64,000 nt of DNA. Origin: Actinomycetota bacterium. Its GTDB lineage: Bacteria; Actinomycetota; UBA4738; HRBIN12. Both the position numbers and the translations under genes were made by a program. Shown here piece after piece: positions 762 through 36,518 of this stretch (within the stretch, counting starts at the first letter, position 1; every line of letters begins with the position of its first letter). The notes beneath the pieces were generated by a model. That model was not told the DNA's origin. It searched no databases and saw only the letters and a list, made by a program, of their open reading frames with translations. The stretch lies in NCBI GenBank assembly GCA_026003015.1, contig BPGL01000002.1, forward strand, positions 1 to 64,000, in the 5' to 3' direction.

Positions 762-2157
762 ATGGCCGCCGACGTGCGCCGGAAGCTCCCCTCGGTCGAC
801 GCCCTGCTGCGGTCCGAGGCCGGTCGGCGAGCCGCCGCGTCGCTGGGTCGACCGTTGCTCAAGCTCGAGCTCGTCCGAGCGCTCGAGCGACACCGCGAGC
901 GCGCACGTGCCGGCGGGGACCTCCCCGACCCCGACGAGGTGCTCGCGGAGGCGGCCGGGAGCGCGGCTCGGATCCTCGCCGGCCTGACACCGGTCATCAA
1001 CGCGACCGGCGTCGTCCTGCACACGAACCTCGGCCGAGCGCCGCTGTCCGAGGAGGCGGTGGACGCGGTGAGCCGAGCCGCCCGCGGCTACACGGACCTC
1101 GAGATCGACCGGACGAGCGGGCGCCGCGGTCGTCGAACGACCCGGGCCGAGACGATGCTCGTCGCGCTCACGGGCGCTGAGGACGCCCTGGTCGTCAACA
1201 ACGGCGCCGCCGCGCTCCTGCTCGCCCTCGTCGCCCTCGCGAAAGGCAAGCGCGTGCTCGTGTCGCGCGGTGAGCTGATCGAGATCGGCGGGGAGTTCCG
1301 GATCCCCGACATCGTGGCGGCCTCCGGCGCCCGGTTCGTGGAGGTCGGAACGACGAACCGCACGCGGAATCGGGGACTACCGCGCCGCCGCCGACGACCG
1401 GCTGGGGGCGATCCTCAAGGTCCACCCCTCGAACTACCGCGTCGTCGGCTTCACCGCCGCTCCCGCCCCCCGTGAGCTCGCCGCGCTCGCGCGGTCCCGC
1501 GGCGTCCCGTTCCTGTACGACGTCGGCTCCGGCCTCCCGTCCTCAGAGCGGGGGCTGCCGCCGGACGAGCCCACGCTCCGCGACGCCCTCGAACAGGGAG
1601 CCGACCTCGTCGTCGCTAGCGGCGACAAGCTCCTCGGCGGCCCCCAGGCGGGGCTCGTCGTGGGCCGAGCCGATCTCGTCCAGCGCCTGCGCGGCCACCC
1701 GATCGCCCGGGTCGTACGGGTGGACAAGCTGCAGGTGGCCGCGCTCGAGGCGACCCTCCGCGCGCACCTGCTCGGCGAGCACCGGACCCTGCCCGTCCAC
1801 CGGATGCTGCACGAGCCCCCCGAGGAGGTGGCGCGTCGCGCACACAGACTCGCCGAGATCCTGGGGGGCGACCTCGTCGGCGCCCGGGTCCGACGCTCCG
1901 CCTCGGTCGTCGGCGGAGGGTCGATGCCCGGCCACCAGGCGCCGTCGTGGGCGGTCGCCCTCCACGTGCCCGACGCCACCGCCTTCGCCGCTCGCCTGCG
2001 GATGGGCTCGCCCGCGGTCGCCGCTCGGATCGAGGACGGTTCGGTCGTGCTCGACTGCAGAACCGTGACCGACGGCGAGCTCCCGGACCTGGCTCGCGCG
2101 GTGGCGTACGCGCGGGAAGGGGACGACCTTGATGACGAGGGGCTCGCCGAAGGCTGA
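762..2157 (+). CDS. selA: L-seryl-tRNA(Sec) selenium transferase (one frameshift)
   Basis: PLP enzyme that converts seryl-tRNA(Sec) to selenocysteinyl-tRNA(Sec) using selenophosphate. Visible family features: [19 protein letters not shown] near residue 80, the DLEID region, [28 protein letters not shown], then after the frameshift [12 protein letters not shown] and [13 protein letters not shown], which holds the PLP lysine. One extra base near 1368 (TNRTR / IGDYR) splits the gene; corrected length is about 464 residues, matching the usual ~460. ATG 762 has TAGGCT 7 nt upstream. It overlaps selB by 26 nt, the usual selAB order. Identification is secure; whether the frameshift is real is not. 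Confidence 0.92.
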
Positions 2158-4005
2158 GCCGTCGCACGAGGTCCGCGTCGTCGCGACGGCCGGTCACGTG
2201 GACCACGGCAAGTCCGCGCTGATCACGCGGCTCACCGGGATCGACCCCGATCGCCTGGAAGAGGAGAAGCGTCGCGGCCTGACGATCGAGCTCGGCTACG
2301 CCTGGTGCACGCTGCCCAGCGGTCGGGAGATCGCGTTCGTCGACGTGCCCGGCCACGAGCGGTTCATCCGCACGATGCTCGCCGGCGTCGGCCCGGTCCG
2401 CTCGGTGCTGTTCGTCGTCGCCGCCGACGAGGGGTGGCGCCGTCAGGTCCGAGGAGCACCTCCAGATCGTCGACGTCCTCGGGGCGACGGCGGGCGTCGT
2501 CGCCCTGACGAAGCGCGACCTCGTCGACGCCGAGACCCTCACGATCGCCGAGCGAGAGGTCCGTGAGCGCCTGGACGGCACCGCCCTGGGCGGCGCGCGG
2601 ATCGTCCCGGTGTCCTCACGCACCGGCCAGGGGATCGACGAGCTCGTCGTCGCCCTCGACGACGCCCTGGCGGGCGTGCCGCCGCCGCCGCCCGGCAGGA
2701 CCCGGCTGTTCGTCGACCGAGCCTTCACGGTCCACGGAGCCGGAACGGTCGTGACCGGAACCCTGACGGGCGGGTGCCTCGAGGTCGGCGACGAGGTGGA
2801 GCTCCTGCCGTCGGGCGCGCGCGCCCGGATCCGCGGCCTGCAGTCCCACGGCCGGTCGGTCGAGCGCGCGTGCCCGGTCTCCCGCGTCGCCGTCAACCTC
2901 GCCGGGATCGATCGCACCCAGGTTCACCGGGGCGAGGTGCTCGTCGAGCCCGGCCGCTGGAGGTCCACCTCGGTGCTGGGACGCACGCCTCGCCGGCGTT
3001 CGCGGCGTCGATCTACCGATCGGCGGACGGGGCGCCTGGCGGGTCCACGTGGGAAGCGCCGACGCCGAGGGGCGCCTGCGGGTGCTCGGGCAGGCCGACG
3101 GGGGGGTCTACGCGCGCGTCGTCCTGCGCCACCCCCTCGTCGTGGAGCCCGGCGACCGGTTCGTCCTGCGCGAGGTGGGGCGGCGCGCCACGGTCGCCGG
3201 CGGGCTCGTGCTCGACCCCCGCGCCGTCGCGCGCCGCATCCGCCGTCGCCCTCGAGCGCCTGCGGGCGCGGGCCCGCGCCGAGCCGGATCAGCTCCCGGG
3301 CCTCCTCGTGGCCGAGCGGGGCGCGGTCCGCGCGGAGGAGATCGAGATCCTCACCGGCAGGGCGAGCGAGCGGGGAGACGGTCTCCGGGTGGATCGTCGA
3401 GCCGCGCGTCCGCGACCGCGTGCAGGAGGCGGTCTGCGAGGCGCTCGCCGACGCCCACGAGAACGCCCCCCTCTCGGAGGGTCTGTCGCTGGACGAGATC
3501 CGGCGCATCGTTGAGCGCGCCCTGGCCGAGGCGGGTGCGCCCACCGAACGCGCCCTCGCCGACGCCCTGCTCGAGGACCTGGTCGCGCGGGAGATCGTGC
3601 GCCGCGGGCGCGACGACGGTCCGGCTTGCCGGGCACCGCGTGGCCCTCGACGCCCACGCCGAGGAGCTGCGACGGCTCGTCGAGGCGATCTCCGGTCCCC
3701 GCGAAGCCGCACCGCCCGAGGTGGACGATCTGGTCCGTTCCGGCTTCGACCCGCAGGTGATCGAGGCGGCGGCGCGCGCAGGGCTCGTCGTGCGCATCGC
3801 GCCGCGCATCGTCGTGAGCCCCGGACTCGTCGAGCGCGCCGTCCGGCTCGTCGCCGAGCACGCCGCCGAGGGCGTCACCGTCTCGGCGCTCCGAGAGGCC
3901 CTCGGCACCACGCGGAAGTACGCCGTTCCGCTGCTCGAGCACCTCGACCGCACCGGCGCGACCAGGCGGGTCGGCGACCTGCGGTTCCCGCGCCGCTCCC
4001 CGTAA
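2132..4005 (+). CDS. selB: Selenocysteine-specific elongation factor SelB (six frameshifts)
   Basis: GTPase that brings Sec-tRNA to UGA codons marked by a SECIS hairpin. The N-terminal GTPase has G1 GHVDHGKS (about residue 22), G2 [11 protein letters not shown]3 DVPGHERF, G4 TKRDLVD and G5 VSS. Translation-factor barrels follow ([30 protein letters not shown]). The C-terminal winged helices, which bind SECIS RNA, end in [24 protein letters not shown]. Corrected length is about 624 residues (E. coli 614). Apparent one-base frameshifts lie near 2440, 2955, 3030, 3235, 3370 and 3620. Every segment stays family-like in the next frame, so sequence error is more likely than decay. Start ATG 2132 lies inside the end of selA. 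Confidence 0.9.
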
Positions 4006-32098: not shown

Positions 32099-32521
32099 AT
32101 GGACGTCACCGAGCTCGAGGACCGGCTCCGCGCCGCGCTGGAGCGGCAGCCGGAGGTGCTGGTCGCCTACCTGTTCGGGTCGGCCGCCCGGGGCCGTCCG
32201 GGTCCCCTCTCGGACGTGGATGTCGCCGTCCTCCTCGCCGAGGACAGCGACCGTACCGGGCGTCGCCTCGACCTCATCGGGGACCTCGCAGCCGCCGCAG
32301 GGACCGACGAGGTCGACCTCGTGGTGCTGAACGAGGCGCCGAACGAGCTCGCCTTCCGTGTGATCCGCGACGGCCGGGTCCTGCTCTGCCGGGACGAGCG
32401 GACACGCGTCTGGCACCGGGCGCGGACGATCCTCGAGTACCTCGACCTCGAGCCGCTCCGGCGCGCCCTCGCCGAGGGCCTCCGCCGCCGCCTCGCGGAG
32501 GGGACGTATGGTCGACGCTGA
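32099..32521 (+). CDS. mntA: MntA-type nucleotidyltransferase antitoxin
   Basis: 140-residue minimal nucleotidyltransferase with the diagnostic GSX10DXD motif (GSAARGRPGPLSDVDV, ~residues 24-38) and the third Asp in EVDLVVLNEA. In MntA-HepT (type VII) systems this enzyme AMPylates and silences the HEPN toxin. TAGGAT lies six bases before ATG 32099. It overlaps the hepT start by 14 nt, typical of the pair. Confidence 0.88.
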   Translation: MDVTELEDRLRAALERQPEVLVAYLFGSAARGRPGPLSDVDVAVLLAEDSDRTGRRLDLIGDLAAAAGTDEVDLVVLNEAPNELAFRVIRDGRVLLCRDERTRVWHRARTILEYLDLEPLRRALAEGLRRRLAEGTYGRR

Positions 32522-32921
32522 GGTCTTGCGGCTGCGCCTGCGCGAGCTCGACCGCCGCGTCACCGCCCTCCGGGAAGCCCGCGCCGCCGGCCGCGACCGC
32601 TTCTTCGACGATGCCCTGCTCCGAGCCGCGGTGGAACGTCACCTGCAGCTCGCGCTCCAAGCGGCCATCGACGCGGCGGCGCACGTGGTGGCCGAGGAGT
32701 ACGCCGACAGCCCCTCGACGTACCGGGAGGTGTTCGAGATCCTCGCTCGGCACGGGGTGCTGGAGCCGGACCTCGCGACCCGGCTCGGACGCGCGACCGG
32801 GCTCCGCAACCTCCTCGTGCACGGCTACCTGGAGGTGGATCCCGCCCGGATCTGGGAGAGCCTGGGCGAGCTGGACGACCTCGTCGCCCTGGCCGAGCGG
32901 GTGGCGCGTCTGCTCCCCTGA
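32508..32921 (+). CDS. hepT: HepT-type HEPN ribonuclease toxin
   Basis: 137-residue all-helical HEPN protein (DUF86). The active-site RX4HXY motif is RNLLVHGY near residue 100. In characterised pairs HepT is an RNase, and MntA adds AMP to the Tyr of this motif. Gene order antitoxin-toxin with overlap fits a functional module. The next gene (HAD phosphatase) starts two bases after the stop, so cotranscription is possible. Confidence 0.88.
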   Translation: MVDAEVLRLRLRELDRRVTALREARAAGRDRFFDDALLRAAVERHLQLALQAAIDAAAHVVAEEYADSPSTYREVFEILARHGVLEPDLATRLGRATGLRNLLVHGYLEVDPARIWESLGELDDLVALAERVARLLP

Positions 32922-33630: not shown

Positions 33631-34194
33631 TCAGCGCACCGTGAGCGAGGTCTCCACCGGGACGGGGTGCGCGATGATGTCGAGCACCGGAGAGGTCTCC
33701 TGCACGTACCGGCAGAGCTCCTGGAGCTCCTCCTCCGAGGCGTTGCCGGCCTTCGCGGTGCCCCGCACCCGGATCGCGGTGAACCCGGGCCGCGGGCCGT
33801 CGGCAATCCCCACGAAGTTGCGGAGATCGAGGTCCCCCTCCACCTCGTACGTGAGCTCCTCGAGCTCGTAGCCCCGCGCGGCCGCGTTGTAGACGAAGCC
33901 CACCGCGTAGCAGAACCCGAGGGCCGCGAGCACCAGCTCGACCGCGTTGGGCCCCAGGTCCCGGCCGAGCAGCACCTCGGGCTCGCAGCCGGTGAGCTCG
34001 TGCGTCCGGGCGTGCGGCACCTCCTGCCCCGCGTGGACGAACGAGCCGATCTCCCCGCGGCTCGTGCTCCCCTCCCGCCAGCTCGTCCTCGCCTTGAAGG
34101 TGAACCGAGCGATCCCCGGATCACCCTCGATAGCCTGGATGGTCTGCACCAGCCGGGTGACGTCCACTCCGTTCCTCGTCACCGCGGTGTCCAT
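33631..34194 (-). CDS. OsmC-family peroxiredoxin-like protein
   Basis: 187 residues, OsmC/Ohr fold. The two conserved redox cysteines are Cys95 in LGFCYAVGF and Cys161 in ELCRYVQETSPV, as in thiol-dependent organic hydroperoxide reductases. ATG 34194 is chosen over one at 34221 because AAAGGAGGA lies directly before it. Next to a membrane protein and divergent from an ECF sigma operon that includes a selenoprotein methyltransferase, suggesting a redox or metalloid stress neighbourhood. Confidence 0.85.
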   Translation of the reverse strand: MDTAVTRNGVDVTRLVQTIQAIEGDPGIARFTFKARTSWREGSTSRGEIGSFVHAGQEVPHARTHELTGCEPEVLLGRDLGPNAVELVLAALGFCYAVGFVYNAAARGYELEELTYEVEGDLDLRNFVGIADGPRPGFTAIRVRGTAKAGNASEEELQELCRYVQETSPVLDIIAHPVPVETSLTVR

Positions 34195-34228
34195 GGCTCC
34201 TCCTTTCGCCGGTAGGCTCACCGGTCCC

Positions 34229-34729
34229 TCAGCGCCGCTCGGCCAGGATCCCCCGCAAGCTGATCAGCGCGCCGGCGACGAAGATCGCGACGGCCAGGTA
34301 GATCAACCCGAGGTGTCCGAGCGTGTCGAAGTCGTTCGGGTAGTGGGCGGGAAGGGCCACCGCGAGCCCGAGCACGGGCGCCGCCACCGCGCCCACCCAG
34401 GCCCACGCCTGTCCCCTGCGCACACCGAACGCCACGAGGAACAGCACCGCCAGTCCCGTCGCGGCGATGAACCCCGACACCGCGATATGCAGGTGCGAGA
34501 CGTACTCGAACAGCGAGGGGCTGAAGGCCTGGATCTCGTCCCTTCCCACGCTCACCTCGTTCGGCCCGATCCCGAGCTCGAGGAACGCGTCGGTGAAGTT
34601 CCGGATGAAGAGGATCACCGCGTAGCCGACGAACCCCACCGCCGCGAGGCCCATCAGCCAGCTCCCGATACGGAGCGCCCGAGCTCCCTCCCGTTCCTCG
34701 GCTCGGGCGCCGATCGCCGCGCTCGCCAT
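34229..34729 (-). CDS. Four-span integral membrane protein, function unknown
   Basis: 166 residues with four hydrophobic segments: WLMGLAAVGFVGYAVILFI (~25), LHIAVSGFIAATGLAVLFLV (~83), AWVGAVAAPVLGLAVALP (~109) and LGLIYLAVAIFVAGALI (~138). No family recognised. GGGAGGGG lies just upstream of ATG 34729. Lies between OsmC (same strand, 34-bp gap) and the divergent sigma factor, so perhaps part of the same stress response. Confidence 0.7.
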   Translation of the reverse strand: MASAAIGARAEEREGARALRIGSWLMGLAAVGFVGYAVILFIRNFTDAFLELGIGPNEVSVGRDEIQAFSPSLFEYVSHLHIAVSGFIAATGLAVLFLVAFGVRRGQAWAWVGAVAAPVLGLAVALPAHYPNDFDTLGHLGLIYLAVAIFVAGALISLRGILAERR

Positions 34730-34880
34730 GTCCCACCCCTCCCTTCCAGGGTTGCCTTCCACTCCTTCAGGGACGCTGGAACCTCGGGGGGGGAATGCGC
34801 TTCCACCGCGATGCAACAAGGTCGTGGTCCGCGGCGTCTTGGGGGTGTGACCGGCGACGTCGGCACGGTGGGGGGATGTC

Positions 34881-35471
34881 GTGACGGTCGAACCGAGGAC
34901 CGCTCGTTCGAAGGAGGACTTCGAGGCGATGGCGACGCAGGCCATCCCGGGGCTGTACGCCCTCGCCCGCCGGCTCACGGACCAGAGCCCCGAGGACCTC
35001 GTCCAGGAATGCCTCCTCCGCGCCTACCGGGCCTACGGGGAGCTCGCGGACGACGCGGCCGGCCCCGCATGGCTCCGGCGGATCCTCGTGAACGCGTTCC
35101 GCGACCGCCTGCGCAAGGAGATGCGGAGCGTGGAGGAGGTATCCGTGGAGGACGTGGACGAGTTCTCCCTCTACCGCACCCTGGCCGAGGAGGATCCCTT
35201 CCCCTACTCCGACACCCTCCACCTGGACTTCCTCCGAGCGTTCGGCCGCGAGGACGTCCGGGCGGTGCTGCTCCGGCTCCCGGTGCGCTACCGCGCGCCG
35301 CTCGTGCTCCGCTACATGGAGGGCTTCTCCACGAAGGAGATCGCGAGGCTCTTGGACGAGCCGCTCGGGACCGTTCTCGCCCAGCTGCACCGGGGACGGA
35401 AGCGCTTCGAGCGGGAGCTGTGGGACTACGCGAACGAGTCGGGGCTGCTCGCGAAGGGAGCGGGGCGATGA
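34881..35471 (+). CDS. ECF-subfamily RNA polymerase sigma factor
   Basis: 196 residues. Sigma region 2 (YALARRLTDQSPEDLVQECLLRAYRAY; WLRRILVNAFRDRLRK) and region 4 (LPVRYRAPLVLRYMEGFSTKEIARLLDEPLGTVLAQLHRGRKRFE). GTG 34881 follows GGGGGGATGTC. Its stop overlaps the next ATG (ATGA) of a zinc anti-sigma factor, so the pair is a classical ECF module. Redox-sensing ZAS anti-sigma factors release such sigmas on thiol oxidation; the target is likely this operon and neighbours. Confidence 0.92.
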   Translation: MTVEPRTARSKEDFEAMATQAIPGLYALARRLTDQSPEDLVQECLLRAYRAYGELADDAAGPAWLRRILVNAFRDRLRKEMRSVEEVSVEDVDEFSLYRTLAEEDPFPYSDTLHLDFLRAFGREDVRAVLLRLPVRYRAPLVLRYMEGFSTKEIARLLDEPLGTVLAQLHRGRKRFERELWDYANESGLLAKGAGR

Positions 35472-35716
35472 CCCCGGACGAGCCGCTGATCCCCTGCTCG
35501 GAGGCCGTGGAGCGGCTCTGGGAGTACCTGGACCGGACGCTCTCGGCCGAGGACCAGGCCCGCGTCGAGCAGCACCTCGCCTTCTGCCGGCGGTGCTGCG
35601 GCGAGCTCGAGTTCGCCCGGGAGCTCCGTGCCTTCCTCGCGACCGCCGCCGCCGACGAGATCCCGCCGGACGTGCGGGAACGACTGCAGGGGTTCGTCCG
35701 GGAGCTGGGAGGGTGA
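35468..35716 (+). CDS. Zinc-finger anti-sigma factor (ZAS type)
   Basis: 82 residues, soluble. HXXXCXXC motif in EQHLAFCRRCCGELEF, typical of zf-HC2 anti-sigma factors such as RsrA/RseA that bind the ECF sigma and lose zinc on oxidation. Start ATG 35468 overlaps the sigma stop. The selenoprotein methyltransferase ATG is only four bases after its stop, forming a three-gene operon. Confidence 0.88.
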   Translation: MTPDEPLIPCSEAVERLWEYLDRTLSAEDQARVEQHLAFCRRCCGELEFARELRAFLATAAADEIPPDVRERLQGFVRELGG

Positions 35717-35720
35717 CGTG

Positions 35721-36518
35721 ATGAGCGAGGATCTCCTGTACCAGACGGAGGTGAAGGCGGCCGTTCGCGCGGCCTACTCGACGATCGGCTCGGGCGGTGG
35801 CGAACCCGTGGCCCGGCGCCTGTACACCGAGGAGCAGCTCGCCGGGCTTCCGGCCGGCGCGATCGCGTGGGCGCTCGGGGTGGGCAACCCGGTCCTGCAC
35901 GCAGGGCTCCGTCCCGGAGAGACCGTCCTCGATCTCGGCTCCGGCGGTGGGATCGACACGATCCTGGCCGCGCGGGAGGTCGGCCCCGCGGGGCGGGCGA
36001 TCGGGATCGATCTGCTCGACGAGATGGTGGAGCGGGCCCGGGGTCACGCGCGGGAGGCGGGGGTCGAGCATTGGACCGAGTTCCGGCGGGGCGAGATGGA
36101 GGACATCCCGCTCCCCGACGCGAGCGTGGACGTCGTGATCTCGAACGGCGTGATCAACCTGTCGCCCCGGAAGTCCCGCGTCCTCGCCGAGATCCACCGG
36201 GTGCTCCGACCCGGCGGCCGGATGTGCGTCGCCGACCTCACCGTTGAGGACGACCTCCCACCGGAGGTCCTCACGAGCGACGCCGCCTGGGCCGGCTGAG
36301 TGTCGGGGGCCATGGCGGAGCGTGTCTTCGCCCGGAAGATGGAGAAGGTGGGGTTCGCCGACGTGTGGATCGGCGAGAGGATCCCCTACGGGATCCGCGA
36401 CGCCGCGCTCTACCCGCTCTTCACGCAGGACCTGATCCGGCTCATGGAGCGGCTGATCCCGCCCGAGCGGCAGGGCTCCGTCGCGATCGGCGTGATCGCG
36501 AAGGCCCGCAAGCCGTGA
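35721..36518 (+). CDS. ArsM-like SAM methyltransferase, putative selenoprotein (Sec193)
   Basis: 265 residues reading through an in-frame TGA at 36297-36299. The SAM-binding core is intact: VLDLGSGGGIDT (~69), the acidic end of strand 2 (GIDLLDEM, ~95) and SNGVINLSPRKSRVLAEIHRVLRPGGR. The frame continues past TGA as VSGAMAERVFARKMEKVGF, the normal ArsM C-terminal region, and stops at 36516. In arsenite methyltransferases this site is W-x-x-C-x-x-G-A, so UGA replaces the third arsenic-binding Cys. The other two canonical Cys are Val54 (LGVGNP) and Gly143 (SNGVINL). A SECIS-like hairpin follows the UGA, and selA/selB are in the window. The substrate is therefore uncertain: arsenic, selenium or another metalloid or thiol. 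Confidence 0.85.
36314..36332 (+). promoter_or_regulatory. SECIS-like hairpin after the UGA codon
   Basis: GGCGGAG (36314-36320) pairs with CTTCGCC (36326-36332), seven pairs including one G-U, around loop CGTGT. The loop begins 21 nt after the UGA and carries G in its second position. Bacterial SECIS elements sit in the coding region with the apical loop roughly 16-37 nt after UGA and a G in the first two loop bases. It would recruit SelB bearing Sec-tRNA. Confidence 0.7.

Follow-up and report, generated by a model that had tools for sequence, protein, structure and literature searches.

A predicted selenoprotein methyltransferase of the ArsM fold, probable effector of a putative thiol-sensing sigma factor operon in Actinomycetota

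The arsenite methyltransferases known as ArsM are described, in the available parts of two papers, as having conserved cysteines at positions 72, 174, and 224, residues by which the first of these papers had selected its sequences (PMC5552862; PMC7248198). Selenoprotein forms of such enzymes are also in print. As far as the accessible text goes, the 2008 ocean survey (GOS) reported eight arsenite S-adenosylmethyltransferase selenoprotein sequences (PMC2398784), and a 2026 review, in the portion at hand, tabulates an arsenite methyltransferase (NF008823) with the Sec motif UxxG (WP_011987699.1), in a row that precedes the table part headed ‘Predicted with high confidence’, together with three related double or fusion selenoprotein families (PMC13188914). 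The words ‘sigma factor’ are absent from that review (PMC13188914). ArsM-type selenoproteins as such are already known.

On the regulatory side, the closest described systems are pairs of the SigR/RsrA type, in which the gene of an ECF sigma factor is adjacent to that of an anti-sigma factor with H-x3-C-x2-C plus an upstream Cys; the SigR-type promoter reads GGAA-N-GTT. No title or abstract beginning among the best-ranked literature matches (the top 8 to 12 of 15 to 427) pairs a selenoprotein with a sigma/anti-sigma system or an ECF group with a methyltransferase, and the pairing terms were not found in PMC4960319. As far as was searched, the methyltransferase clade described here (for which the label MT-A was coined), its operon, its promoter-like motif, and its single-Sec site are new.

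The member of this clade from which the comparison started lies in a 64,000-nucleotide stretch of DNA (the window), which starts at base 1 of contig C2 in the 2.2-Mb, four-contig genome of an Actinomycetota bacterium. As a preliminary description of the window had it, the MT-A gene (35721..36518, forward strand) opens with the ATG at 35721, closes with the TGA at 36516-36518, contains a single in-frame TGA at 36297-36299 (forward strand), and specifies 265 residues if this first TGA is a residue, selenocysteine at position 193. The codon also lies within the W-x-x-C-x-x-G-A pattern claimed for it, in the context W190-A-G-U193-V-S-G-A197 (more widely A-W-A-G-U-V-S-G-A), and the alignment with ArsM that had been recommended as a check sets it opposite Cys224 of the solved ArsM chain 5eg5; by our own count on the printed alignment, G143 stands opposite Cys174 and V54 opposite position 72. 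Chain 5eg5, which we take to be CmArsM, is a C72A mutant according to its title. Routine gene prediction would probably terminate the MT-A protein at residue 192 and so miss a residue present throughout the clade.

Upstream of MT-A and on the same strand are the genes of an ECF sigma factor (34881..35471, its start codon placed mechanically) and of a zinc-type anti-sigma factor (zf-HC2, RsrA-like; 35468..35716) with C10, H36, C40, C43, and C44, and a promoter-like motif, TGCAACAA-N15-CGTC (34812..34838, forward strand), precedes the sigma gene. The operon and the motif had been missed in the preliminary description and were found here by locus comparison, the order ECF sigma, anti-sigma, and MT-A on one strand recurring in 26 of 26 loci (23 found first and 3 later).

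The explanation proposed here, which we regard as probable when taken as a whole, is that a Sec methyltransferase serves as the effector of a thiol-sensing sigma operon. MT-A would be a Sec-containing, SAM-dependent methyltransferase of the ArsM fold, its UGA decoded by SelB and tRNA-Sec at the direction of a hairpin, and would act for a small, self-regulated stress operon. The zinc-thiol anti-sigma factor would hold the ECF sigma factor until thiol oxidation, a thiol-binding metalloid, or an electrophile freed it, whereupon the sigma factor would drive transcription of the operon that encodes it, plus a divergent gene in certain genomes, from TGCAAYRR-N15-CGTC; MT-A would then methylate and disarm a compound held by its single selenolate and small-molecule thiols, as opposed to the three protein thiols of ArsM. 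Comparison of sequences supports the Sec coding, the hairpin, the operon, the promoter-like motif, and the loss of the other arsenic-binding cysteines, while the conserved residues suggest zinc binding and redox sensing by the anti-sigma factor and the position of the motif suggests its control by the sigma factor. The substrate class and chemistry, namely detoxification of a soft metalloid or electrophile, are a guess somewhat more apt to be wrong than right. On this explanation, MT-A links selenium with a stress-type sigma factor of its own, and the promoter-like motif, the anti-sigma factor, and the enzyme form a compact module open to testing. Knowing its inducer would hint at the substrate and hence at why some ArsM-fold enzymes abandoned the remaining arsenic ligands while keeping a single selenium.

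How far MT-A is to be called ArsM-like depends on what is meant by the term, which the preliminary description had applied to it: the word holds for fold and homology and is doubtful for function, given the cysteine sites and the score. A model of the structure, built from seven rows and with a mean pLDDT of 84.4, confirmed the ArsM fold, the best Foldseek matches in the PDB being ArsM, and MT-A shares with ArsM (NF008823/PRK11873) the methyltransferase domain and a Sec at the Cys224 position; the glycine-rich motif that it keeps is presumably the one expected of a SAM site. Unlike ArsM, MT-A has lost the other two cysteines. Gly occupies the Cys174 site in each of the 25 copies covering it (22 aligned and 3 later), and inspection by eye of 24 rows found that all 24 lack a Cys at the Cys72 site and that the N-terminal Cys pairs of canonical copies are missing, whereas 13 of 13 canonical ArsM rows keep SNC and have the Cys72 site in GCG (the latter by eye). 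Among the invariant columns of 22 MT-A rows, C193 is the sole Cys/Sec, and only the 224 site of the three conserved in ArsM is retained, as Sec or Cys. The operon context differs likewise, with a sigma factor in place of arsR.

That MT-A is simply an arsenite methyltransferase selenoprotein, and its operon one more control of arsenic methylation, is a credible if rather doubtful alternative. The nearest families and folds are ArsM, and the Sec lies in the same UxxG motif as in the ArsM selenoproteins partly described in print, a likeness compared at that motif only. Arsenic is also a possible substrate because, according to the available text, the Thermus enzyme TtArsM methylates arsenite with a single Cys, as activity measurements show, so that one ligand can suffice, and MT-A resembles it in having one chalcogen residue instead of three (PMC8649762). 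Unlike MT-A, however, TtArsM has Cys77 and two His as proposed ligands and an ArsR/SmtB-type regulator, and the same text mentions no Sec (PMC8649762); C77 may also be a site other than that of Cys224. The residues at the Cys72 and Cys174 sites weigh against arsenite, as does the score of the window protein, which at 236.7 is below the NF008823 cut-off of 263, and the genome already has, beside arsR, a separate canonical arsM (291 bits, with Cys at these sites), about which the preliminary description was silent. The double or fusion families ArsM_AhpD_UU (NF041537), ArsM_DUF2284_UU (NF041536), and MTase_UXPK_star (NF047649) gave domain matches to 22 of 22 MT-A and 12 of 12 members of a second family (MT-B, below), although they are by name fusion or double selenoproteins and the window protein is single-domain and far below their cut-offs. 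That MT-A represents a new class of single-Sec methyltransferases, distinct from the arsenite methyltransferases and the dedicated output of its own thiol-sensing sigma factor, is a reading to which we give slightly less than an even chance.

The anti-sigma factor keeps C10, H36, C40, C43, and C44 in 23 of 23 rows, a C, H, C, C, C set that we take to be the pattern of zinc-thiol anti-sigma factors. As in the SigR/RsrA pair of Streptomyces, to the extent that it is described in the sources at hand, an ECF sigma factor adjoins an anti-sigma factor with H-x3-C-x2-C (23 of 23 rows). The present pair nevertheless differs from SigR/RsrA in its scores (94.4 for the sigma factor against a cut-off of 251.55 for the SigH model TIGR02947, and 56.3 bits for the anti-sigma factor against a cut-off of 62.5 for the RsrA model TIGR03988), in the linkage of its operon to a methyltransferase, and in its promoter motif. 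A SigR-type promoter was sought upstream of the sigma genes and rejected as a candidate, occurring in 1 of 22 regions with 0.95 expected from shuffles, which is not above chance.

The motif found instead, TGCAA[CT][AG][AG]-N15-CGTC (TGCAAYRR), precedes the sigma gene in 14 of the 22 regions compared (one further locus, L054, in which the contig end cuts the sigma gene, was left out of these counts), and a looser form in 15 of 22, with a mirror copy of the looser form facing the other side in 8 of 22. Over 100 dinucleotide shuffles the looser form averaged 0.07 loci and never exceeded 1, a test that was not blind because it used the very regions in which the motif had been spotted by eye. The motif is absent from 7 of the 22 regions and from all 3 later loci. 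Across 15 genomes, the strict pattern TGCAAYRA gave 25 matches versus 26 for a backwards control; of its 11 TGCAAT matches, 10 fell at the sigma-MT-A locus and the remaining one in another part of genome G264, and the 14 TGCAAC matches comprised the window's own and others that were background-like. A wide sigma regulon is thus unsupported, since nearly all TGCAAT matches lie at the sigma-MT-A locus, and this clustering suggests that the sigma factor may serve little beyond the locus, with the proviso that weaker sites would be missed. If MT-A is indeed the dedicated output of this sigma factor, the regulon may hold little more than sigma factor, anti-sigma factor, and enzyme.

The linkage of a thiol-type anti-sigma factor to MT-A in every locus could also be taken to mean that the Sec is a redox switch, or a partner for the anti-sigma factor, and that the methyltransferase is part of the signalling. 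This is improbable, given that the ArsM fold and the glycine-rich motif are kept and that no internal partner Cys is conserved within MT-A, C193 being its sole invariant Cys/Sec in 22 rows.

Beyond the operon proper, the neighbours vary in identity and orientation and include a small membrane protein (8 of 23 loci), an OsmC-like protein (6 of 23), or MT-B. The window has the first two: a divergent small membrane-protein gene on the reverse strand (34229..34672, the coordinates being those of the conserved part), with about four hydrophobic segments by eye and no Pfam or NCBIfam family, and, adjoining it on the same strand, an OsmC-like gene (33631..34221, reverse). A MntA/HepT type VII toxin-antitoxin pair lies just upstream of this region, at 32099-32921. 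Elsewhere, a Cys-rich protein of only about 62 residues, with several CxxC, is encoded on the opposite strand near the operon in 4 of 23 loci (L045:4278-4469, L046:309-494, and L050:1906-2097 among them), and genome G140 has two complete sigma/anti-sigma/MT-A operons (contigs C93 and C81; L052 and L057).

MT-B, another ArsM-like gene and a second family of the same design, lies near the operon in 13 of 23 loci and in 1 of the 3 later loci (L105), a count that omits a weak match in L060, includes a frame-broken copy in L057, and falls to 11 with a stricter query and threshold. In 12 aligned MT-B sequences the same site is UGA in 8 and Cys in 4, and the Cys174 site is Gly in 12 of 12. The MT-B hairpin has a stem unlike that of MT-A but almost the same loop, CGUGC or CGUGU in 7 of 8 copies and UGGAA in L061. 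Its covariation is better than that of the MT-A hairpin: two of its pairs show two-sided changes, a number attained in 82 of 500 shuffles, and its covariation score was reached by 2 of 500. The MT-B genes of L061, L073, and L074 have the SECIS loop UGGAA or UGGAG in place of CGUGN, possibly a second loop class. The window genome returned five matches (MT-A, the canonical arsM, and three weak ones), none of them a close MT-B. A single origin of MT-A and MT-B is neither supported nor rejected (p-AU 0.393), and, if the new-class reading of MT-A is true, both enzymes might cooperate against a single metalloid or electrophile.

The proposal that the MT-A UGA encodes selenocysteine is strongly supported by comparison across the clade. 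Copies were pooled from two whole-genome model searches of the window's phylum, of 296 genomes (20 copies in 19 genomes, one broken) and of 396 genomes (at E 1e-80, 22 copies in 21 genomes, including three new ones), and from a contig scan with six short patterns taken from one protein that included other phyla and gave six loci, all actinobacterial, three of which were taken to be those of G022, G106, and G127 and were counted once. Residue 193 in the resulting 26 copies (23 first and 3 later) is UGA in 19, Cys in 7, and nothing else, and MT-A accordingly shows the in-frame UGA, where homologues have Cys, by which bacterial selenoproteins are recognized. Full MT-A genes occur in 6 of the 27 genomes of the window's order, all with UGA, and a seventh genome there, G061, has an MT-A broken into two frames (L064:4763-5366, two pieces with about 64 residues unmatched). 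In a 51-row tree, the 22 full MT-A rows form one side of a branch (100/99), within which at least two Sec/Cys changes are required. That the Cys copies follow a loss of Sec decoding was rejected: G226, G118, and G075, which have Cys, have selA, selB, and selC over cut-off. In two Cys-form loci, L023 and L048, the frame continues into what by eye is a cupin-like domain ending in C-x-x-C.

The earlier claim that the stretch 3′ of the TGA is protein-coding was borne out by codon-position differences and pN/pS against orthologues. After the UGA, MT-A and its nearest orthologue (L014) differ at 13, 13, and 29 sites of the three codon positions (pN 0.19, pS 0.45) and MT-A and L015 at 22, 18, and 28 (pN 0.27, pS 0.46), a coding-type pattern that is absent from the other two frames of this stretch. 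Constraint is weaker against the Cys copy of L043 (pN 0.32, pS 0.38; 3′ of the hairpin only, pN 0.36, pS 0.35).

The SECIS-like hairpin that had been noted after the UGA also exists, and is visible by comparison, not by folding of the lone sequence: the 45 nt from the UGA, folded alone, do no better than shuffles (z 0.62) and the hairpin is not their lowest-energy fold, and a first 55-nt fold of the window sequence gave z -0.13. This predicted bSECIS-type element (36314..36332, forward strand) has a 7-bp stem (GGCGGAG/CUUCGCC) and the loop CGUGU, starts at the 15th nt after the UGA, and sets the loop 21 nt from it. In the part of the review at hand, bSECIS rules call for a loop of 3-9 nt, a stem of 4-16 bp, a G in the first two loop positions, a distance of 16-37 nt from the UGA, and an MFE of at most -7.5 (PMC13188914); the window hairpin has a loop of 5 beginning with CG, a stem of 7, a distance of 21 nt, and -9.6 kcal/mol when its 21 nt are folded alone. 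Folded bare, the 19-nt hairpins of 8 of 17 UGA rows do not attain -7.5 kcal/mol; the 30-nt folds of these 8 are at -8.0 or lower, and all 30-nt folds pass the limit.

The hairpin is kept in 19 of 19 UGA copies and not in the Cys copies. Its stem cells are paired in 119 of 119 cases in 17 UGA rows versus 45% in 6 Cys rows, and those 17 copies share the 7-bp stem with the loop CGUGU, CGUGC, CGUGA, or GGUGC; among the later copies, which served as a fresh test and were judged by eye, the hairpin is identical in L105 (UGA), has a known C/U variant in L106 (UGA), and is absent from L107 (Cys). One stem pair has changes on both sides in the UGA rows (G-C, G-U, A-U), and covariation in the stem is weak, with 59 of 500 shuffles scoring as high and 281 of 500 giving as many two-sided pairs, because the six other pairs never vary. 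Frozen silent positions are a stronger sign of a SECIS than covariation here: at UGA+8, where the codon spans the loop, 16 of 17 UGA rows have CGT, against 29 of 311 Arg codons elsewhere in these genes.

The Sec machinery of the window invites a further explanation, namely that the gene is decaying, its UGA a true stop and the sel genes decaying too. The preliminary description placed selA and selB in the window without mention of any break; both are present and both are frame-broken near the contig end. In this assembly, selA (about 777..2142, forward strand) is spread over two frames, and selB (about 2171..3993, forward strand) over six successive pieces that change frames, the middle ones weak, at 37-43% identity. 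A broken MT-A also occurs in the family (G061/L064, above). Decay is very unlikely all the same, for the UGA stands at the same codon in 19 copies, followed by coding constraint and a conserved hairpin, and other Sec genes of the window genome have no break: selC (72 bits) and selD (377 bits) are over cut-off, and the single TGA of FdhA falls on its Sec site, within SNNIDSCNRTUHAPS, and is accompanied by a hairpin with, by our own reading, a GGUCU loop. The frame changes themselves, one in selA and five in selB, share one and the same step; they begin about 1.4 kb from the contig end, and all six lie within 4 kb of it. We take sequencing error to be likelier than decay because they are one-way and near that end. 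Sigma, anti-sigma, dnaX, hemL, and hemB in turn match their families end to end or nearly so. As selA and selB are frame-broken in the assembly, Sec decoding in this very strain is putative. A Cys codon, TGC or TGT, misread as TGA, which an assembly with probable errors near a contig end might suggest, is already contradicted, and is negligible as an explanation, in that other genomes supply 18 more copies with the same TGA, each of which has the hairpin.

Among the 19 MT-A genomes, selB is over cut-off in 17 and selA in 18, the window genome falling short for both because its copies are broken. The tRNA-Sec is over cut-off in 17 of the 19 genomes, with more than 60 bits in 15; the margin is under 1 bit in G140 and G287, and G127 and G264 fail. 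In 9 of the 19 genomes (G032, G287, G264, G236, G140, G118, G086, G183, and G127), selD itself has one in-frame TGA.
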